From Aliamphritea spongicola (GTDB lineage Bacteria > Pseudomonadota > Gammaproteobacteria > Pseudomonadales > Balneatricaceae), in NCBI GenBank assembly GCA_024347235.1, contig AP025283.1, positions 2,914,001 through 2,978,000 of the forward strand: a DNA stretch of 64,000 nt, in the 5' to 3' direction. The notes under the pieces were generated by a model. The model was not told the origin of the DNA. It did no database searches and saw only the letters and a list, made by a program, of their open reading frames with translations. Positions within the stretch are counted from its first letter, which is position 1. The number at the start of each line of letters is the position of its first letter. Positions 30,655 through 44,434 of the stretch are shown in pieces. The position numbers were made by a program, and so were the translations under genes.

Positions 30655-33572
30655 TCAGCCGAATAAGCTGTGCTGCAGTGGCGTGCAGGAGAAGTGAAGG
30701 CGGGCTTTCTGTACCCATTCGGAAGCCACAAAGGAATTGTCACCCACCGTGCGGGACATAAGATAATACAGTTCCGGCAAATAACAGTTAGCACCCTGCT
30801 GCTCTGCCTGTCCAATGGCCTCTTCCAACACCTTAACCGCTTCCTGTTGCTGTCCGTGGCTGATCAGAACATCACCAATCAGCGCGGCATACAGGGAATG
30901 GGTCAGCCGGAATCCGGTACTGGATAACCAACGCTGAAACGCCGTTGAAATGGTCAGAATATGCTGCTCATCAGGGGTCTGCTGGTATTCAGCCCACCCC
31001 TTAAACAACGCGGCGATTCCTGATAGAACGGAAAGGCATTTTCTGCCGTCAGCACTTCCAGCTCCGCGGCATACTCAAGGGTTTTCTCAACGTTACGCTG
31101 CTTCCAGGAGAACCACGCGCCGGCCTGTAAAGCAATCGCCAGGCTGAACATATGCCCGACTTCACGGCTGGTTGCGATCATGTCTTCCAGATAGGACTCG
31201 GCCTGCTCATCCTGTAACTGCAAAGCACTCAGACACTTAAAACACCAGGCAATCATACGGGGATCCTGGCCTTCAATTTCCAGTGCTGATTCCAGCATAT
31301 CCGGCTCATACTGCTCCAGCGCCAGACTTGAATGCCGGAACGCATCCTTAGCCCGGCCGGCCCAGAAACAGGTATTCCCCAGAGCTGTCAGTGCCTGCAT
31401 TTTACAGGCGCTGTCTTCCAGTTGTTCGGATAACTCCAGAGCCTCCTGGGCATAGCCAATGGCTTCCGGAATATCCAGCCGCATCAGGGCAATTGTCCAG
31501 ATTCGGAATAAGCCATTCACCTTACGGTGATAACTCTTGGTCCGGTCACACAGCTCAAGGATTTCAGCATACACATCGCTGATCACCGGGGAGTACCAGC
31601 CGTAACGCATTTTATAAACGTTCGCCAGATAGAACAGCAGATCCAGCTTAAGGTCTTCACACTGTTCCGGCGTATATTTCCCCGGTACAGTGTTCCGGCA
31701 GGGCCGCTGTTACCAGCAAATCACGGGCTTCCAGAAGTTGCGTTTCAGCTTCACTGTAACTGTCAGCGGCAATCAGCAGATTGGCATAACGGGCCTGATA
31801 AATAACCGCCCGGAAATAATTACCTGCCAGATTAAACTGACGGTATAACCACTCCATACGTAACCGGTCACGGGAAGGCGTTTGCTCAGACAACTTGCCA
31901 TCCATCATGGCTTTCTCGACTTCATCCGCCAGTTGCCCGTGACGCTCGGAACGGTCTTCATCTTTGAGGGTTTCAACCACCAGCTCACGGATCAGCCGGT
32001 TAGCAATTTCCAGCTGCCCGTCTGAAGTAGTCCGTACCAGTTGCGACTGCCGCAGGGCCTTCAAATCAGATTGCCCTGCCAGCACATAGAGGACATCAAG
32101 CGGTAATGAAGCTCCCGCTAAAGCCAGATACTGCATTGCCTGCAGTTCACCAAAGCTCAGGGCAAACAACTGCTCTTCCAGCACAAGCTGAATAGACTCA
32201 GGCATTTGCTGACTGTCAGGATCCACCTGTTCCAGCAATAAATTCAGATAAAACGGTACTCCGTTAGAACGGGCAATGCTTTGCTGCAGCCATTCGCGGG
32301 AATGATGCTTAAAGTGCCCCGCCAGCTTCTCGCATTCCGCCACCGTTAAGCGGGATAACGCAATAAAAGAATCCGGATTCAGTAACCGGATAACCCGGTC
32401 AGAATAACGGAAGGTACTGGTAATCACTGCCGCCACCGGGAAACCCCGCAGTGTCTCACTCAGTTCAGCCAGCTGTTCCAGTGCATCCGACACACAAAGA
32501 TGAATATTATCAATCAGCAAGGCCAGCCCGGCAGGCATGTTTTCCAGCGTCGCCACCAGCACATCGCTGTCTTCGGCCAGCCCCTGAGGGCGCCATTCTT
32601 CCAGGCGGTTAATCAGGGACAGGCGCCAGTCCGTTTCATATTGCTCTGCATCCAGGCGAATCACTTGCATACCGCGGCTCTGGGCGTAACCGGACATCTC
32701 TTCCAGCATCCGGGTTTTACCCATACCGGAATCACCGGCCAGGCAGTTCAGTGTTAACCGGCCATCCCCAGACTGACGTCAAACTGGCCCTTTAAGCGGC
32801 CGAGTTCTTTATCACGGCCATACAGTGGAATTTGCCGTTCTTCCTTGCAGGTAGCACCTTCTATCACCCACCAGCCAGACTGTCCCGGCTGCAATGGTGA
32901 AAAATCAAAATGCAGGTCATAAAGAAATTTAAGCTGATCCCCACCACAATTTTATTGGCCGGAACATACATTGCTTCATCCAGCAACCGGCTGACATCAC
33001 TGTTCGGCAAGGTATATCCCTTGCCGTCGTGGTGTAACTGTTCCAGAGAAATCAGACAGAAATGCGGTGACAGCAGTGAGGCAGGCCGCTCGGTCAGCAT
33101 TTGTTCCAGCAACAGTAAAATATGTGCCCTGCCGCTGTTAGCGGAATCCGGTGCAGTAACATACTGGCTGAAGGCCGCAATGACATAAGCACCGTGCTGT
33201 TTAACAAACAGCGGGCTCAAATCATTCAGTTGTTGCTGTATAGCAGCATGTTGTTCAGCATCAGTCACCTTAACAACAGCAACCACACTCAGGCGGTTCT
33301 GTAAAAGTGCCTGCCCTTCGGCCAGATCGTACTGCTCTTTGTGCAATGACAATTCTGCGTGGGATACCGAAAAACTCCGCCAGATTATGCAATGTGCGCA
33401 GCGTTACCGGCTTATTGGTTTCCGCACGCTTAATGGTGGCAATAGATATACGTAAATGCTGGCGTTCACAGGCATCGGCCAGCGCTTCCTGACTGAGGCC
33501 GTGCTCCCTGCGGAGACGTTTCAGACGAGCACCGTCAATAAAAATCTGCCGGTCTTTTGTTTTGTCATGCAT
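30655..33572 (-). CDS. Large HTH / cyclase-like / AAA ATPase / TPR regulator, frameshifted
   Basis: About 972 residues. The N-terminus is a Cro/C1-type HTH (LKRLRREHGLSQEALADAC, ISIATIKRAE, TLRTLHNLAEFFGI). The next part, about residues 95-240, has VKVTDAEQHAAIQQQLNDL and KQHGAYVIAAF, resembling a degenerate class III nucleotide cyclase domain. An AAA/STAND ATPase follows, with Walker A GDSGMGKT and Walker B-like ALLIDNIHL. The C-terminal half is helical TPR repeats (PEAIGYAQEALELSEQLED, ALTALGNTCFWAGRAKDAF). The layout parallels cyclase-ATPase-TPR and MalT-like STAND regulators, but with an Xre-type HTH at the front. Frame changes lie near 33360, 32920, 32770, 31680 and 31010. ATG 33572 has AGGA five bases upstream. 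The signal and targets are unknown. Confidence 0.8.
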
Positions 33573-33987: not shown

Positions 33988-34755
33988 TCAGTTTTCATAA
34001 CCAAGTTGAGCAGAAATAGCCCTGCCGGCGGCTTGCAAATCTTCAATCCAGGCATCTTTGCGCCGCTCAATCGGTGCAGAAACAGACAAGCCCGCTGTAA
34101 TATTACCGGTCCGGTCGTATAACAATACGCCGATACAGCCCACATCAATTTCAGCCTCTTCATTATCCAAAGCATACCCCTGAGCAACACTTTTCAAACA
34201 CTCATCGGTCAGTGCCGGTAAGGATGAAAATGTATTACGGGTATACGCGGGCAGATTGGTACGCTGTGCGTAATTGGCAATTTCCTCTTCCCCGGAGCCG
34301 AGCATCAGCTTGCCCACACCGGTTACATGCAGGGGTGCCCGGCTGCCAATAATCTGCTGAACATGCATCATGCGGTTCGGAGTCACTTTTTCAAAATAGA
34401 TAACCACGTCTCCTTCACGGATCGTCAGGTTAACCGTTTCACCGGTCTTATCCCGTAATTTTTCCATAAAGGGTAAAGCCACCGCCCGTAAATCAATGTC
34501 CGTATGCAGGCGATTACTCAGCTGCAGCAGACGCTGCCCAAGCCGGTATTCGCCGCTGCCATTGCGCTCAACAAAACGGTTATCGATCAGTGAATGCAAA
34601 ATCCGGTGCGCGGTTGAGGATGTAACCCGGTATCGGCACTGAGCACCTTCAGCTTCACCGGCTTTGAATAGCGTGAAATGGAATCCAGCAGCGTTGCTGC
34701 CCGGTCGATTACCTGAATACGCGCTTCCGGTTTTTCTTTGTTTTTCCTGAGACAT
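33988..34755 (-). CDS. bhcR: IclR-family regulator of the beta-hydroxyaspartate cycle (BhcR-like), frameshifted
   Basis: About 256 residues. The N-terminal winged helix reads, after correcting two indels (AAAAACC near 34735 and CCTCAACC near 34625), ARIQVIDRAATLLDSISR ... STAHRILHSLIDNRFVER. The IclR effector domain follows: LPFMEKLRDKTGETVNLT, RAPLHVTGVGKLMLG, and the C-terminal GCIGVLLYDRTGNITAGLSV. The ATG at 34755 lies behind GGAGAG. The gene diverges from bhcABCD, as bhcR does in Paracoccus denitrificans, where BhcR is a glyoxylate-responsive activator. By synteny I infer the same role here; glyoxylate binding is not shown by sequence. Confidence 0.87.
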   Translation of the reverse strand: MSQEKQRKTGSAYSGNRPGSNAAGFHFTLFKAGEAEGAQCRYRVTSSTAHRILHSLIDNRFVERNGSGEYRLGQRLLQLSNRLHTDIDLRAVALPFMEKLRDKTGETVNLTIREGDVVIYFEKVTPNRMMHVQQIIGSRAPLHVTGVGKLMLGSGEEEIANYAQRTNLPAYTRNTFSSLPALTDECLKSVAQGYALDNEEAEIDVGCIGVLLYDRTGNITAGLSVSAPIERRKDAWIEDLQAAGRAISAQLGYEN

Positions 34756-34794
34756 CTGCCTGCTCTCCGAACGTTTTGAACGTATTTGCAATGG

Positions 34795-34947
34795 GAAACA
34801 ATTTCATAATGCAGCAGATATTTTCACAATACAACACACTTATTTTGCATTTCGTATTATGAAAATCAGAAAACAAAAATTAATAGATTAAAAACAATCA
34901 CTTAAGAACATAATTCCAGAAAAGCCACCAATTTTCACATAATGAAA
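34795..34947. promoter_or_regulatory. bhcR-bhcA divergent promoter region with three palindromes
   Basis: Two closely similar inverted repeats fit TTTCr-N5-TGAAA: TTTCGTATTATGAAA at 34850-34864 and TTTCACATAATGAAA at 34933-34947. A shorter one, GAAACAATTTC, is at 34795-34805, just upstream of the bhcR start. IclR proteins bind such palindromes as dimers or tetramers. The repeated TTTC/GAAA half-sites are therefore candidate BhcR operators serving both directions. Confidence 0.55.
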
Positions 34948-35055
34948 TGATTGCGTATTGCGATATAAAAACCTGACTCATAAGTTAAATAGTAACTGAC
35001 CAAGGCAGCCGTTATCCGGCACAGAGCCCAACTATCAACTTTAGGCAGAGCAATC

Positions 35056-36222
35056 ATGGCAGATCAAAACCCCGTTTTTATTCCCGGCCCGACCAACATC
35101 CCGGACCGGTTACGCAATGCAATGCACATTCAGAGCCGCGACCACCGCGCCCCTGACTTTGTAGAAACTTTTGCCCCTGTCCTGCGTGACTGCAAAAAGT
35201 ATTCGGTACCGACAGTGGTGAAATCATCACCTTCCCGGCCAGTGGGACCGGTGGGTGGGAAGCCGCTATCTGTAACACCCTGTCCCCGGGTGACAAAGTA
35301 CTGATTGCCCGCTACGGCATGTTTTCGCACCGCTGGATCGACCTTTGCGAACGCCATGGTCTGGATGTACAGATCATCGAATGCAGCTGGGGCAGCGGTG
35401 CACCGGCAGACCAGTTTGAAGAAGTGCTCCGTGGTGACAGTCAGCATGACATCAAAGCCGTTCTGGTTACCCATAACGAAACAGCCACCGGTGTACTGAG
35501 CGACATCGCAGCCGTTCGCCGGGCAATGGACAGCGCCGGCCACCCGGCAATGATGTTCGTTGACTGTGTAAGTTCGCTGGCTTCGGTGCCTTTCGAGATG
35601 GATGCCTGGGGAGTGGACATTGCCGTGTCCGGTTCGCAGAAAGGTTTCATGCTGGCTACCGGCATGGCCATTCTTGGGGTAAGCCAGAAAGCACTGGCCG
35701 CCATGGAAACTGCCACCCTGCCACGGACCTTTTTGACTTCCGCGACATGATGGCAGCCAACGCAACCGGTGGCTTCCCTTACACACCACCCCTGCAACTG
35801 ATTTACGGCCTGAAAGAAAGCCTGAACATGCTGTTTGAAGAAGGTCTGGAACAGGTTTACGCCCGCCATCACCGCCTGGCGGAAGGTGTTCGCAAAGCGG
35901 TATCAACCTGGGGACTGAAATTATGTGCCAACTCACCGGAGCTTTATTCCAACACAGTAAGTGCCATTTATGTACCGGAAGGCTTTGACAGTAACCGTTT
36001 AACGGAACATGCCTTCAGCAAATACGGCGTTTCCTTCGGCATCGGCCTGGGTGAAATGAATGGCAAGGCATTCCGTATTGGCCATCTGGGCTCACTGACC
36101 GACGTTATGGTGCTGTCGGACTGGCCACCATCGAAATGGCCATGGCCGACCTGGATTACCCGATAGAACTGGGCAGCGGTGTACGTGCCGCACAGGAATA
36201 TTTTCGCCAGACCGCCGCGTAA
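35056..36222 (+). CDS. bhcA: L-aspartate:glyoxylate aminotransferase BhcA, frameshifted
   Basis: BhcA moves the amino group of aspartate to glyoxylate, giving oxaloacetate and glycine. It is a PLP fold-type I enzyme of the serine/alanine-glyoxylate transaminase family, about 388 residues. Visible motifs are FIPGPTNIPDRLRNAM, EIITFPASGTGGWEAA-like (split at 35210), VTHNETATGVLSDIAAVRRA, MMFVDCVSSLASVPFEMD and the PLP lysine in AVSGSQKGFMLATG. Frame changes occur near 35207, 35730 and 36120. ATG 35056 lies six bases after an AGGCAGAG site. It is the first gene of four, with 32 bases to bhcB. The specific substrate is inferred from the operon; alone it would be called a serine-glyoxylate transaminase-like protein. 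Confidence 0.9.
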
Positions 36223-36254
36223 GGCACCTTCAAACTGCAGAGAAGAGGTAAATC

Positions 36255-37216
36255 ATGTCTGAACAAACAATGATCATACCGACCTGGGATGATGTAAAGA
36301 TCGCCCACGAGCGTATCAGACCCTACATCCATGAAACACCGGTCCTGACCTCACGTTTCATCAATGAGCTGACCGGCGCGGAGCTGTTCTTTAAGTGCGA
36401 AAACTTTCAGAAAGCCGGTGCGTTTAAAGTGCGCGGTGCCTGTAATGCTGTGTTTGGTCTCAGCGAAGAACAGGCGGCAGTTGGTGTGGCCACCCACTCT
36501 TCCGGTAATCACGCCCTGTCGCTGTCTTACGCTGCAGGCCAGCGCGGCATCCCCGTTTCAGTGGTGATGCCACGGACCGCGCCTCAGGCAAAGAAAGATG
36601 CAGTTATCGGCTACGGCGGAAAGATCGTCGAATGCGAACCATCTACCAGTTCACGGGAAGCAGTATTTGCAGAAATGGTCGCCCAGTCCGGTGCGGACTT
36701 CATTCACCCGTATAACGATCCGCGGGTAATCGCCGGCCAGGCAACCTGTTCCCGGGAGCTACTGGATCAGGTCGACAATCTGGACGCTGTTATCGCGCCG
36801 ATTGGCGGTGGCGGGATGATCTCCGGCACCTGTCTGACCCTGTCCAGTATCGCACCTGAAGTAAAAATCTATGCGGCAGAACCGCTGAATGCCGATGACG
36901 CAGCACGGTCTTTCCGGGCCGGTCACATCATTGCTGACGATGCCCCCAGACCATTGCGGATGGCTTAAAAGTGCCTCTGAAAGACCTCACCTGGCACTTC
37001 GTCAGCAACCACGTTACGGACATTCTGACGGCCACAGAAACAGACATTGTAGACGCCATGAAGCTCATCTGGAAGCGCATGAAAATTGTGATGGAGCCCA
37101 GCAGTGCGGTACCACTGGCGACCATTCTGAAGAATCCGGATGTATTCCGGGGCAAACGCATCGGCGTGATTATCACCGGCGGCAATGTCGATCTCGACAA
37201 ACTGCCCTGGCTGTAA
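36255..37216 (+). CDS. bhcB: beta-hydroxyaspartate dehydratase BhcB, frameshifted
   Basis: BhcB removes water from erythro-beta-hydroxyaspartate to give iminosuccinate. It is a PLP fold-type II enzyme, about 320 residues, closest to threo-3-hydroxyaspartate ammonia-lyase/serine racemase. The PLP lysine is in NFQKAGAFKVRGACN, followed by SSGNHALSLSYAAGQRGI and the phosphate loop IGGGGMISG. The C-terminal MEPSSAVPLATIL and GVIITGGNVDL are typical. It lacks the regulatory ACT domain of biosynthetic threonine deaminase. The frame changes near 36945 (GCCCCCAG), giving TIADGLKVPLKDLTW. AGAGGTAAATC precedes ATG 36255. Confidence 0.9.
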
Positions 37217-37326
37217 GCATCCCGTAAACCGAACAACGATCTTATCCCGGACAGTCTCTGCACAACAGCACGCCTCTCACTTGCTGAGAGTACTGCCGGG
37301 TAAAGAAAATTTATCTGGAGAATCCC

Positions 37327-38483
37327 ATGACAGCACAAAACAATTTACCGGCGTCCCTGGAAGTAGGTTATGACATCCCTGCTACCATCGGTATGAACGA
37401 AGCAGACATCCAGACCCCCTGTCTGGTTGTTGACCTGGACGCCCTGGAAAAACATCCGTACCATGGGCCGCTATGCCCGTGAAATGGGTGTTCGACACCG
37501 GGTACACGGCAAGATGCACAAGTCCGTTGATATAGCTTTATTACAGGAGCGCCTGGGTGACAGCTGCGGTGTTTGCTGCCAAAAGTATCGGAAGCAGAAG
37601 TATTCGCCCGTGGCGGTATCCGTGACGTACTGGTGTCCAACCAGGTACGAGACCCGGCCAAAATCGACCGCATGGTACAACTGCCGAAACTGGGTGCACG
37701 GACAATCTGCTGCGTTGACGACATCGATAACGTTGCTGAACTGTCTGCGGCTACCCAGACCCACGGCACTGAAATTGAGTGCCTGGTAGAAATCGACTGC
37801 GGTGCCGGCCGCTGCGGTGTGGCCGCCGGTGAACCGGTGGTTGAACTGGCCAAGGCTATTGCTGCTGCACCGGGCCTGAAGTTTGCCGGTATTCAGGCTT
37901 ACCAGGGCGCTATGCAGCACTTGCAGGACTACAGCGAGCGTAAAGAAAAATCAACATCGCGGTTGAAATGGTAGCCCGCTCCATCGAACTGCTGAAAGCG
38001 GAAGGCCTGGAGTGCGACATCGTTGGCGGTGGCGGCACCGGCTCCTACTACTTTGAAGGTAATTCCGGTGTGTTCAACGAACTGCAATGTGGTTCATACG
38101 CCTTTATGGATGCGGATTATCAGACCATCCACGATGAGAACGGCGAGCGTATCTCTGAATTTGAAAACTCACTGTTCATCCTGACCTCCGTCATGAGCCA
38201 CGCCAAAGCCGACAAAGCCATCTGTGATGCCGGCCTGAAAGCCCAGTCGGTAGACAGCGGCCTGCCGTATATCTTCGGCCGCGATGATGTTGAATACATC
38301 AAGTGCTCCGATGAGCACGGTGTAATTGCCGATCCGAACGGCGCCCTGAAAGTAAACCAGAAGCTGAAACTGGTACCTGGCCACTGTGACCCTACCTGTA
38401 ACGTTCACGACTGGTACGTAGGCGTTCGCGGCGGCAAGGTTGAAACCCTGTGGCCGGTATCAGCCCGCGGTAAAGCTTATTAA
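37327..38483 (+). CDS. bhcC: beta-hydroxyaspartate aldolase BhcC, frameshifted
   Basis: BhcC condenses glycine and glyoxylate to beta-hydroxyaspartate, the carbon-carbon bond-forming step of the cycle. It belongs to the fold-type III PLP (D-threonine aldolase/DSD1) family, about 385 residues. Marks are TPCLVVDLDALEKN, the PLP lysine region HGKMHKS, VEIDCGAGRCGVAAGEP, FAGIQAYQGAMQH, and the C-terminal metal site in VPGHCDPTCNVHDWYVGVRGG with His and Cys ligands. Frame changes lie near 37448 (GAAAAAC), 37568 and 37948 (AAAGAAAAATC). GGAG lies seven bases before ATG 37327. The second half (37968-38483) is read in one frame. Confidence 0.92.
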
Positions 38484-38546
38484 GCATTAACACCCTGATT
38501 TGTAGTGCCGGGCAACCGGCACACAACACCTGTAAGGAGTCACTGA

Positions 38547-39530
38547 ATGACTACTCAGAATAAAGGCGTTGCCATTGTTTCCGAAGCCGTTTGCGAAGCG
38601 ATTGTTGGCCGCCCGGAAGCCTTCACCGCTGTCGAAAACATTTTTGCTGCCATGGCAAAAATGATGCGTACAACTTTCCCGTTGTCCGCGAAGCCATTGG
38701 CCATGCCGATGCCCTGTACGGATTTAAATCCGGTTTCGACCGGGCCGGTCAGGTACTGGGGGTTAAATCCGGCGGATACTGGCCCGGCAATGCAGCCAAC
38801 GGCCTGACTAACCACCAGTCCACGGTAATCCTGTTTGATCCGAACACCGGCAAACTGAAAGCCCTGGTCGGCGGTAATTACCTGACCGCTGTCCGTACGG
38901 CAGCATCTTCTGCGGTGTCTATTGCTCACCTGGCCCGTAAAGATGCCAAAGTACTGGGCATGGTCGGCGCGGGCCACCAGTCAACCTTTCAGCTACGGGC
39001 CGCCGTGGAGCAACGCAACTTTGAAAAGTGGTTGCCTGGAACCCACACCCTGAATACCTGCCAAGGCTGCAGGCTGTCTGCGATGAACTTGGCTTGCCAT
39101 TCGAAGCGGTCAGCCGCGAAACACTGGGGCCCAGTCTGACGTTATCATCACCATCACCTCAGCCTTTGAACCCTTACTGAAGAAGAGCTGGATCAAACCC
39201 GGTACACACATTGCCTGCATGGGCACCGATACCAAAGGTAAACAGGAAGTTGATCCTGAACTGCTGGTTGCCGCCACCGTATTTACCGACGAGACCGAAC
39301 AGTCGGTCACCATCGGTGAAGCACAGCATGCCGTCGCAAACGGCAGCCTGAGCGCCAGCGACATTACCCCGATCGGTGAAGTCATCAATGCCACTCACCC
39401 GGGCCGTCGTTCTGATGATGAAATCACCCTGTTTGATGGCACAGGGGTGGGCCTGCAGGATCTGGCAGTCGCATCGGCGGCCGCTGAACTGGCCATCGCC
39501 CAGAACAAAGCTGACTGGACCGAACTGTAA
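38547..39530 (+). CDS. bhcD: Iminosuccinate reductase BhcD, frameshifted
   Basis: BhcD reduces iminosuccinate to L-aspartate with NAD(P)H, regenerating the amino donor of BhcA. It is an ornithine cyclodeaminase/mu-crystallin family protein of about 327 residues. The substrate-binding part includes GFKSGFDRAGQVLGVKSGGY and VGGNYLTAVRTAASSAVSI. The Rossmann loop is VLGMVGAGHQSTFQLRA, and THIACMGTDTKGKQEVDPELL and the C-terminal DDEITLFDGTGVGLQDLAVA follow. Frame changes lie near 38660 (AAAAATGATG), 39028 and 39118. AAGGAGT is eight bases before ATG 38547. It is the last gene of the four, followed by a long hairpin and a strong terminator. Confidence 0.92.
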
Positions 39531-39733: not shown

Positions 39734-40608
39734 ATGAAAAAGACTGCCCGAAGCCGCATGCGCGCCCTGCTAGAAGACAACCGCTGTATTCCCTGCGCAT
39801 CTGTTTTTGATCCAATGTCCGCACGGATGGCTGAAGATATTGGTTTTCAGACCGGTATTCTGGGAGGCTCCGTTACTTCCTGATGACCCTCGGCGTACCG
39901 GACATCTGTCAGTTAACACTCAGCGAACTGGTTGAGCAGGCCCGGCGCGTTTGCAGAGCATCCAGCCTGCCGGTCATTGTTGACGGCGATAACGGCTACG
40001 GTAATGCCCTGAATGTGGTCAGAACCATCGAAGCACTGGAATACGCCTGCGCCTCAATGGTCACACTTGAAGACACCGTTTTGCCCCGTGCCTATAATGA
40101 TTCTGCACAGCAACTGATTCCGGTTGACGAAGCCTGCAGTAAACTGAAAGCAGCCCTGCAAACCCGGCGGGATCCGGCATTCGCAATCTTTGCCCGCACC
40201 CATGCACTGCCGGGGCAGCCAGTGGATGCATTGCTGGAAAGAATCAAAGCCTACAGTGCAACCGGCATCGACGGCCTGTGTATATTCGGGCTCACCGACA
40301 AAGACGTTTTAGGTCAGATCGCCGCCAGCACCCATCTGCCACTGATGCTGATTACCTACGGTGAAGTTGATTTAGGCAGCCAGCAGATGCTGACTGATAA
40401 CAAAGTCAGAATCCGCCTGCAGGGACATCTGGCGTATGAAGCCGCTGTTCAGGCGACTTACCAGTCGTTACAGGCATTACATCTTCGGCATAACCCCGGC
40501 GCAGAACTGCGCAACGCCAGTGCCAGCGCGAAGACGCTGATCAGTGAGTATTCGCGCCAGTCACACTACGATACCCTGATTAACAACTATGTGACTCCGG
40601 ACATGTAA
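39734..40608 (+). CDS. Isocitrate lyase/PEP mutase superfamily protein, oxaloacetate decarboxylase type, frameshifted
   Basis: About 291 residues, a TIM-barrel enzyme. It begins [26 protein letters not shown] in outline, then [38 protein letters not shown] (metal-binding Asp residues), [21 protein letters not shown] and LMLITYGEV. The pattern matches the Pseudomonas PA4872-type oxaloacetate decarboxylase, which converts oxaloacetate to pyruvate and CO2; methylisocitrate lyase or PEP mutase activity is less likely because their catalytic Cys loop (KKCGH-like) is absent. Oxaloacetate is exactly the end product of the upstream Bhc pathway. The terminator between them means it may have its own promoter. 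A frame change lies near 39880. ATG 39734 follows AGGAACACACAGC. Confidence 0.78.
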
Positions 40609-43315: not shown

Positions 43316-44434
43316 TCAGCCGTAACTGGCTACCGGTTCTCCCAGCACATCCAGCCTTGGGGTAATGCCCAGTCCCGGCTCATCCGGTGCCATTACCAGT
43401 CCGTTCTCCACTCTGAAATTACCGTCAGCGGTTGTCAGGCTCACCATGTCCCGGCACTCCAGAACGGAACGTAACAGTTCCGGCCTGACTGTTTGCCCCA
43501 AATGGACGATGGCGGCGAATGCAATATCAGAACCGGTGGTTTCCTGCACACTCAGGGTCAGCCCTGCAGCGGTACAGATATCACGCTGCCGGCGTCCGCG
43601 GGTCAGCCCGCCATTCTTGAAATTTTAAGGCCAATGCCGTCCGCCAGATCATTGGCAACGATCTGGGTCACAGCGGTTTCATCCAGGGCCAGCTCATCCC
43701 AGATGATCGGGATATCACAGCGGGCGCGCAGCGACTGACATTCACGGATGGTGGCACAGGGAGCCTCCAGCACAATGTCCAGTCCGGGCGGCAACAGGCG
43801 AATCATGCGCAATGCATGTTCCACGGACATGCCACCATTGGCATCCACCAGAAAATATTCACCGGGTTGTCGGTCCGCCAGTGAAGCGGTAATCCGTTCT
43901 GCATCCAGCGCCGGACCACCTTCGGCCTCCGCTGCACCCACCTTAATTGAATGGCTGCGGTAACCCTGCGCCCGGTGTTCCGCAATCCGGCTACGCATAT
44001 CGTCAGGGTCACCGGCATAAATAGACGAGATGATCGGCATCGCCGCCCGGGTACGCCCGCCTAACAAATCACACACCGGCATGCCGGTCGCTTTGCCAAA
44101 GATATCCCAGCAGGCCACATCAATGGCTGTTTTGGCGTGGTTGTGGCCGACCAGTGCACCATCCATCGCATCATTAACCCGGTCAACATGGCGGGGATCG
44201 AGACCAATCAGCTGCGGAGCCATTTCAGCAATACCGGCCCGTACCCCCAGCGCATGGGCGGCAATATAGGTTGCACCAAACGGGGTGCTCTCCCCCAACC
44301 TTCCAGACCGGTATCTGTAGTAATTCTGACAAAGGTAGCATCGAAACTGTGGTACTCGCGGCCTCCGGATAACCGGTACACGCCGCCCGAGTAAGGTAAG
44401 TCCTGTTGAAACACATCAATACGGGCATTTTCAT
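43316..44434 (-). CDS. Mandelate racemase/muconate lactonizing enzyme family protein, frameshifted
   Basis: About 372 residues of the enolase superfamily. Visible: an N-terminal capping domain (RLSGGREYHSFDATFVRITT, GLEGWGE), then KTAIDVACWDIFGKATGMPV, the barrel SIKVGA strand, and metal ligands in FLVDANGGMS (Asp), DIVLEAPC (Glu) and IIWDELALDE (Asp/Glu). The second catalytic lysine is in IGLKISR. Family relatives include cis-3-hydroxy-L-proline dehydratase and proline-betaine epimerases; the exact substrate cannot be fixed. Frame changes occur near 44295 and 43625, and one in the first codons near 44415. The start is ATG 44434. Confidence 0.82.

Follow-up and report, generated by a model that had tools for sequence, protein, structure and literature searches.

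A gene cluster of the gammaproteobacterium Aliamphritea spongicola raises the question of where the glyoxylate for a beta-hydroxyaspartate (bhc) cycle comes from when the genome shows no sign of the usual supplier. The cluster lies in a 64,000-nucleotide stretch of contig AP025283.1 (positions 2,914,001 to 2,978,000, assembly GCA_024347235.1), which is called the window here and whose first nucleotide is position 1. A preliminary description of the locus had reported an IclR-type gene, named bhcR, divergent from bhcABCD and had proposed that the bacterium uses algal glycolate. Our analysis led to a different account, which we consider the probable one: the locus is a bhc cycle operon whose glyoxylate most likely comes from purines, whose fifth enzyme is likely an oxaloacetate decarboxylase, and whose separate IclR-type regulator is accompanied by two predicted operators.

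The gene order in the preliminary description was borne out. An IclR gene on the minus strand was followed on the plus strand by aminotransferase, dehydratase, aldolase, and reductase genes, and the motifs SGSQKG, GAFKVRG, HGKMHKS, GHCDPTC, and GMVGAGHQ were found in that order. The outer coordinates (33988-39530) were also correct, and a further gene of the unit, past bhcD, had gone unmentioned. To assign the genes, we scored the window pieces and the proteins of relatives against NCBIfam models with curated cut-offs. BhcA was the top model for the bhcA pieces (259 and 211 bits; runner-up 75 and 90), BhcB for the bhcB piece (423 bits; runner-up 264), and BhcD for the bhcD pieces (255 and 158 bits; runner-up 78 and 81), and the bhcC pieces matched BhcC with 70, 214, and 337 bits and no second model. 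The BhcA pieces of the window stayed under the cut-off because they are fragments of a frameshifted gene. The intact proteins of Amphritea balenae (locus L009) exceeded the equivalog cut-offs for BhcA (NF045640; 724 versus 650 bits), BhcB (NF045641; 609 versus 550), BhcC (NF045642; 725 versus 690), and BhcD (NF045643; 595 versus 500), with BhcD being judged by these profile scores. The nearest solved structures were D-3-hydroxyaspartate aldolase 6qkb for A. balenae BhcC (633 bits) and iminosuccinate reductase 6rqa for A. balenae BhcD (447 bits).

Placement of BhcC with D-threonine aldolases had been named beforehand as a possible refutation, and a quick tree of 77 rows, computed without a mixture model, did not produce it. 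The 171-residue window piece grouped with its congeners inside the BhcC clade, and eight D-threonine-aldolase-like outgroup rows stood apart, on branches that the program flagged as long. A ninth outgroup candidate, L229, which scored 603 bits to BhcC, branched beside the clade. Gammaproteobacterial and other rows were mostly separate, with exceptions in both directions (L055, L076, and L216; L028 and L030). At the level of sequence, we regard it as confirmed that the window carries a genuine bhcABCD cluster. As the consulted parts of PMC11323563 indicate, the literature already describes the cycle with its enzymes and reports it from Gammaproteobacteria, and the core cluster is ordinary.

No bhc enzyme gene of the window is a single open reading frame; with A. 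balenae or G348 queries (G348 is the nearest congener), each aligned in two to four frame-shifted pieces. Frameshifts in all of the bhc genes might suggest decaying pseudogenes and a dead pathway, a reading to which we give almost no weight. The breaks were not specific to bhc: a neighboring 973-residue gene lay in six pieces, a 594-residue gene lay in four, and the rpoB gene of the same genome lay in two, one of them with a stop. The neighboring genes were collinear with open genes in G348, and across 13.7 kb the window matched that congener at 87.6% identity, the alignment having 145 gap positions. In addition, the window BhcC piece was 99% identical to G348 BhcC over 171 residues, and genome completeness was 78% despite a single contig of 4.99 Mb. 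Because rpoB and the neighboring genes are also broken and the congener copies are open, we concluded that the frameshifts are assembly errors and rejected pseudogene decay.

The four bhc reactions would be those established for Paracoccus. BhcA would transaminate glyoxylate, with aspartate as the amino donor, yielding glycine; BhcC would join glycine to a second glyoxylate to give beta-hydroxyaspartate; BhcB would dehydrate this product to iminosuccinate; and BhcD would reduce iminosuccinate to aspartate, with oxaloacetate as the net product of the cycle, formed from two glyoxylate with no carbon lost. The fifth enzyme would then convert part of the oxaloacetate to pyruvate. Like the Paracoccus denitrificans bhcRABCD cluster (described in the consulted parts of PMC11323563), the window has the same four equivalog families and a divergent IclR-type gene beside bhcA. 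It differs in that its regulator falls outside the BhcR equivalog, its predicted operator is another one, an extra enzyme gene lies past bhcD, and no glcD was found in the genome.

To look for a glycolate route, we searched genomes with the GlcD model TIGR00387 (curated cut-off, 568 bits) and called presence at a gap that we set ourselves, at 430 bits, above a second tier of 273-362 bits. No GlcD was found in the A. spongicola genome, where the best match reached 104 bits; this genome-wide search covered GlcD and did not extend to GlcE or GlcF. A Paracoccus-like supply of glyoxylate by glcDEF was thus not seen here, and the cycle itself is independent of glcDEF. The preliminary description had called for a search for glycolate oxidase; its result does not support algal glycolate use by this genome and points instead to a purine-degradation cluster with AllA (ureidoglycolate lyase).

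An ordinary Paracoccus-like cycle fed by glycolate, with the glycolate oxidizer unrecognized or glcD lost in the faulty assembly, would be the conventional account, and we consider it unlikely, if worth weighing. Glycolate use is the published role of the cycle in the consulted parts of PMC11323563, and 33 of 50 bhc-carrying genomes had a GlcD candidate of at least 430 bits. These included A. balenae (513 bits), Pontibacterium (509 bits), Motiliproteus (528 bits), and the metagenome-assembled genome (MAG) L012, and a candidate of 524 bits was found in Colwellia ponticola; the four scores are all under 568. The candidates occurred in 24/24 bhc genomes outside Gammaproteobacteria (one a planctomycete MAG) versus 9/26 gammaproteobacteria. 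Against the glycolate account, the method that gave no GlcD signal in A. spongicola did detect the frameshifted BhcA, BhcC, AllA, and RpoB of that genome. Its two weak GlcD loci matched two other A. balenae proteins (1017 and 969 residues) rather than the A. balenae GlcD candidate, and they are orthologues of other large oxidases, which accounts for them.

A purine source would start from guanine or xanthine and pass via urate, then allantoate and ureidoglycolate, to glyoxylate, which AllA would release to feed the bhc enzymes. The A. spongicola genome has a cluster of this kind, comparable to known purine/allantoin catabolism genes (xdh, puuD, uraD, alc, and allA), at 4.110-4.130 Mb. It encodes AllA (167 bits), XdhB (1304 bits), guanine deaminase (625 bits), OHCU decarboxylase (230 bits), allantoicase (347 bits), and a protein with the urate oxidase N-terminal domain (440 bits), as well as XdhC and a xanthine/uracil-type permease. 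AllA was found in 17/17 bhc-carrying genomes in one set, A. spongicola included, and in 45/50 in another, with 16 genomes shared. In several relatives, such genes lie near bhc: at least 14 other genomes have AllA no more than about 25 kb away from it. The bhcC-AllA gap was about 6-24 kb in contig coordinates in A. balenae, Pontibacterium, MAG L012, Colwellia demingiae, Thalassotalea ND16A, Shewanella UCD-KL12, and C. psychrerythraea GAB14E, and AllA was part of the bhc locus itself in L029, L032, G343, G345, G357, G389, and G405. The two were on separate contigs in Marinomonas MED121, Motiliproteus, Bermanella, and C. ponticola, and no AllA gene lay within roughly 10 kb of bhc in G347, G348, and G358.

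In Escherichia coli, the glyoxylate sink in allantoin catabolism is glyoxylate carboligase (Gcl). In contrast, Gcl was above its cut-off in 0/17 genomes, A. spongicola included; weaker matches were present in all 17, the best of them reaching 290-364 bits, and were taken for acetolactate synthases. The bhc enzymes would replace Gcl as the sink. A thiamine-diphosphate enzyme encoded in two pieces beside the A. spongicola purine cluster (genome positions 4129570-4131166) scored well under the Gcl cut-off.

Several observations weigh against a purine source. None of the 50 bhc genomes passed the curated GlcD cut-off of 568, so presence rests on the 430-bit line, and our confidence in the preferred account was slightly lowered because no GlcD candidate reached the curated value. 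Within the same genus, A. balenae and MAG L012 do carry a GlcD candidate. Flavin mononucleotide-dependent 2-hydroxy-acid oxidases, which are possible glycolate oxidizers, were not included in the search, and a gene could be absent from an assembly that is error-ridden and only 78% complete. As for the purine route in A. spongicola, its steps at allantoinase and hydroxyisourate hydrolase are presumed, and the cluster lies 1.17 Mb away from bhc. The best matches to the operator pattern (see below) in this purine stretch (L135), one of them before the permease, covered 11/13 positions and were weak. AllA is also common in the order (78/293 genomes); it accompanied BhcC in 8/11 genomes versus 70/282 genomes of the same order without BhcC, and five of those eight belong to one genus.

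The gene past bhcD belongs to the phosphoenolpyruvate (PEP) mutase/isocitrate lyase family. At 12 loci from 11 distinct genomes, such a gene starts 82-336 bp past bhcD on the same strand. This gene, which resembles PA4872, followed bhcD in 8/8 full congeneric clusters besides the window. It was present in 4/80 named loci (L009, L010, L012, and L019), and because only these four show it, we placed the fifth gene in this corner of Gammaproteobacteria. PA4872 (3b8i) was the nearest solved relative of the A. balenae homologue (231 bits versus 101 for the next), aligned over residues 6-249. The positions aligned with the EDT, ART, Y, and GH residues of PA4872 were kept in 13/13 homologues, and the larger piece of the window gene, which is without the N-terminal part, likewise keeps the PA4872-aligned positions. 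A review, in the parts consulted (PMC8100219), supports the reported function of PA4872 as an oxaloacetate decarboxylase. The fifth gene product is likely an oxaloacetate decarboxylase as well; the window gene differs from PA4872 in adjoining bhcD, and the role is predicted from sequence.

It seemed rather improbable that the fifth enzyme is a lyase in place of a decarboxylase, either one that produces glyoxylate or one that cleaves a different 2-oxo or hydroxy acid. The superfamily is shared with methylisocitrate lyase and dimethylmalate lyase, and the top NCBIfam model was TIGR02317 (prpB), with 152 and 138 bits against a cut-off of 354. Yet PA4872 was by far the nearest solved relative, as the bit scores above indicate. 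Lyases of the PEP mutase/isocitrate lyase superfamily typically have a KKCGH-type catalytic loop, and such a loop was absent from the alignment of the fifth-gene homologues and also from PA4872.

The regulator was less clearly assigned than the enzymes: the IclR piece in the window scored 134 bits for BhcR and 125 for KdgR. Intact relatives scored 156 (A. balenae), 154 (Thalassotalea), and 159 bits (G348) with the BhcR equivalog NF045644, far under its cut-off of 350, and the regulator fell under the curated cut-off of every IclR-family model matched. In this respect, it differs from the glyoxylate-responsive E. coli regulators IclR and AllR, which belong to the same family and whose structures (AllR 1tf1; IclR 1td5 and 2o99) were among the nearest solved ones. 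Compared with the A. balenae protein, the regulator was 69-82% identical in the main gammaproteobacterial group. At the remaining loci, among them L055 and L076 (gammaproteobacterial MAGs), the IclR protein was only 24-35% identical, although the enzymes there were about 59-86% identical.

The predicted operators differed, too. The palindrome TTTCA-N5-TGAAA occurred in 19/24 gammaproteobacterial intergenic regions, the window included, compared to a shuffle mean of 0.07 (kinship ignored). In the other loci, mostly from alphaproteobacteria, it occurred in 1/24 regions, and the commonest palindrome was the inverted TGAAA-N5-TTTCA (11/24). With these scores and this unlike operator, the name bhcR given in the preliminary description was not upheld, and of its interpretation only the assignment of the four enzymes to the Bhc equivalogs stood. 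A tighter pattern, TTTCAYANNRTGAAA, searched on one strand, gave 54 occurrences in 61 partly overlapping gammaproteobacterial loci (1.17 Mb), where about 0.4 was expected, and none was inside a called gene. After overlaps were removed by coordinates, 42 distinct sites remained, 35 of which fell in the gap that separates the regulator from bhcA or bhcB. Two of the other seven were where an NCS2 permease gene and a BicA-like gene diverge (L022 and L027), one was before xdhA (L141), one was next to a GlcG-like gene (L009), and the remaining three, in Colwellia, were beside aminotransferase or CBS-domain genes (L016/L142 and L017). The window has two predicted sites, 83 bp apart; each of the three nearest congeners likewise has two, every one with a single mismatch. 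A pair of sites in each promoter would be in keeping with a dual action such as the consulted parts of PMC11323563 propose for Paracoccus BhcR. The regulator appears to be distinct from the alphaproteobacterial BhcR and probably controls the unit via the two TTTCA-N5-TGAAA-like predicted operators.

Other genes recurred at these loci. An HbpS/GlcG-like gene (PF03928; L146:6880-7314 in Thalassotalea) was found in 17/24 gammaproteobacterial loci, adjoining the regulator where inspected. A BicA-like SulP-family transporter gene (under curated cut-offs; for example, L020:4657-6264) and an NCS2-like permease gene lay near bhc in six loci.

A reduced form of the cluster, with the regulator and bhcBCD and without bhcA, was found at 16 loci of Colwellia, Thalassotalea, and Shewanella (L014-L018, L020-L022, L024, L026, L027, L029, L031-L033, and L035). 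A frame-independent search found bhcA in 0/16 of these loci, and the interval upstream of bhcB, which measured 354-609 bp in five loci, was too short for bhcA. When seven of the genomes were searched whole, the best BhcA match was 208-215 bits, versus at least 720 bits in six relatives having bhcA. A full bhcA was also missing from L040, L041, L044, L046, L056, and L078, which are mostly contig ends or MAGs. The bhcA-less clusters would make aspartate from glyoxylate and glycine, and in five of them an AGXT-like aminotransferase, encoded close to bhc, might supply the glycine. A GlcD candidate was present in 1/16 bhcA-less cases (C. ponticola) versus 7/10 gammaproteobacteria with bhcA (A. spongicola counted, L038 set aside); kinship may account for this joint loss of bhcA and GlcD, with only two to three independent pairs, and the Fisher values computed for such tables take no account of it.

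We tentatively suggest, with less confidence than for A. spongicola itself, that bhc serves as the glyoxylate sink of purine breakdown in many Gammaproteobacteria. The separate IclR-type regulator would link bhc to the purine genes via its operator pattern, the genus of the window would add a decarboxylase, and the Colwellia/Shewanella form would drop bhcA. The distinction matters since bhc genes in metagenomes can be taken to indicate that algal glycolate is used. Should purines feed many of the gammaproteobacterial clusters, glycolate users would be overcounted, and a carbon-conserving recycling of nucleic-acid bases at sea would be missed. Through the operator motif and the bhcA-less clusters, the purine idea can be tested directly in culturable strains. 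The literature searched (titles, abstract starts, and passages, among them parts of PMC12214560, PMC8100219, and PMC8371827, with the original 2019 Nature paper outside its scope) held no earlier report of the purine link, the separate regulator and operator, the fifth gene, or the bhcA-less clusters.

The RpoB proteins of A. spongicola and A. balenae were 92.5% identical over 1233 residues. At E<=1e-60, BhcC was found in 9/16 other genomes of the genus, one of which (G344) has a distant relative of 493 bits, and in 23/116 family genomes, A. spongicola included. Twenty-one of the 23 were above the cut-off; the two under it were A. spongicola, with its gene in pieces, and G344. A first sample (0/11 other members) had suggested that the cycle is absent from the rest of the family, an idea that the full search overturned. 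The G344 relative (L211) had no bhcA, bhcB, or bhcD called alongside and branched outside the BhcC clade. Two other family genomes, G377 and G378, have two BhcC copies each above the cut-off, and the second copy of G378 (L215) grouped among mostly alphaproteobacterial rows. In L038, an Oceanospirillaceae MAG, bhcC stood alone in a 20-kb locus, with no bhcA, bhcB, or bhcD.

The features of the locus are listed in Table 1. The bounds of the bhc genes were taken from alignments of the intact proteins of G348.

Table 1. Genes and predicted operators of the bhc locus in the window
Feature	Position	Strand	Remark
IclR-family regulator gene, divergent from bhcA	33988..34791	-	bhcR by position only; frameshifted near 5' end
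Predicted operator, 12/13 positions of TTTCAYANNRTGAAA	34850..34864	.	Regulator side of intergenic region
Predicted operator, 13/13 positions	34933..34947	.	124 bp upstream of bhcA
bhcA, L-aspartate:glyoxylate aminotransferase	35056..36222	+	4 alignment pieces; start approximate
bhcB, beta-hydroxyaspartate dehydratase	36255..37216	+	2 alignment pieces; start approximate
bhcC, 3-hydroxy-D-aspartate aldolase	37315..38483	+	2 alignment pieces, at least 3 frames; start approximate
bhcD, iminosuccinate reductase	38547..39530	+	4 alignment pieces; start approximate
PEP mutase/isocitrate lyase superfamily gene, PA4872 homologue, probable fifth enzyme	39734..40608	+	2 pieces

Beside the IclR gene, at 30658-33563, the window has the 973-residue gene mentioned above, which is regulator-like, with HTH, AAA, and TPR domains in its six frame-shifted pieces; a gene of 973-975 residues is at the matching place in G347, G348, and G358. 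On the other side of the unit, at 43319-44426, lies an enolase-superfamily gene akin to cis-3-hydroxy-L-proline dehydratase, the G348 homologue of which scored 346 bits against a cut-off of 500.

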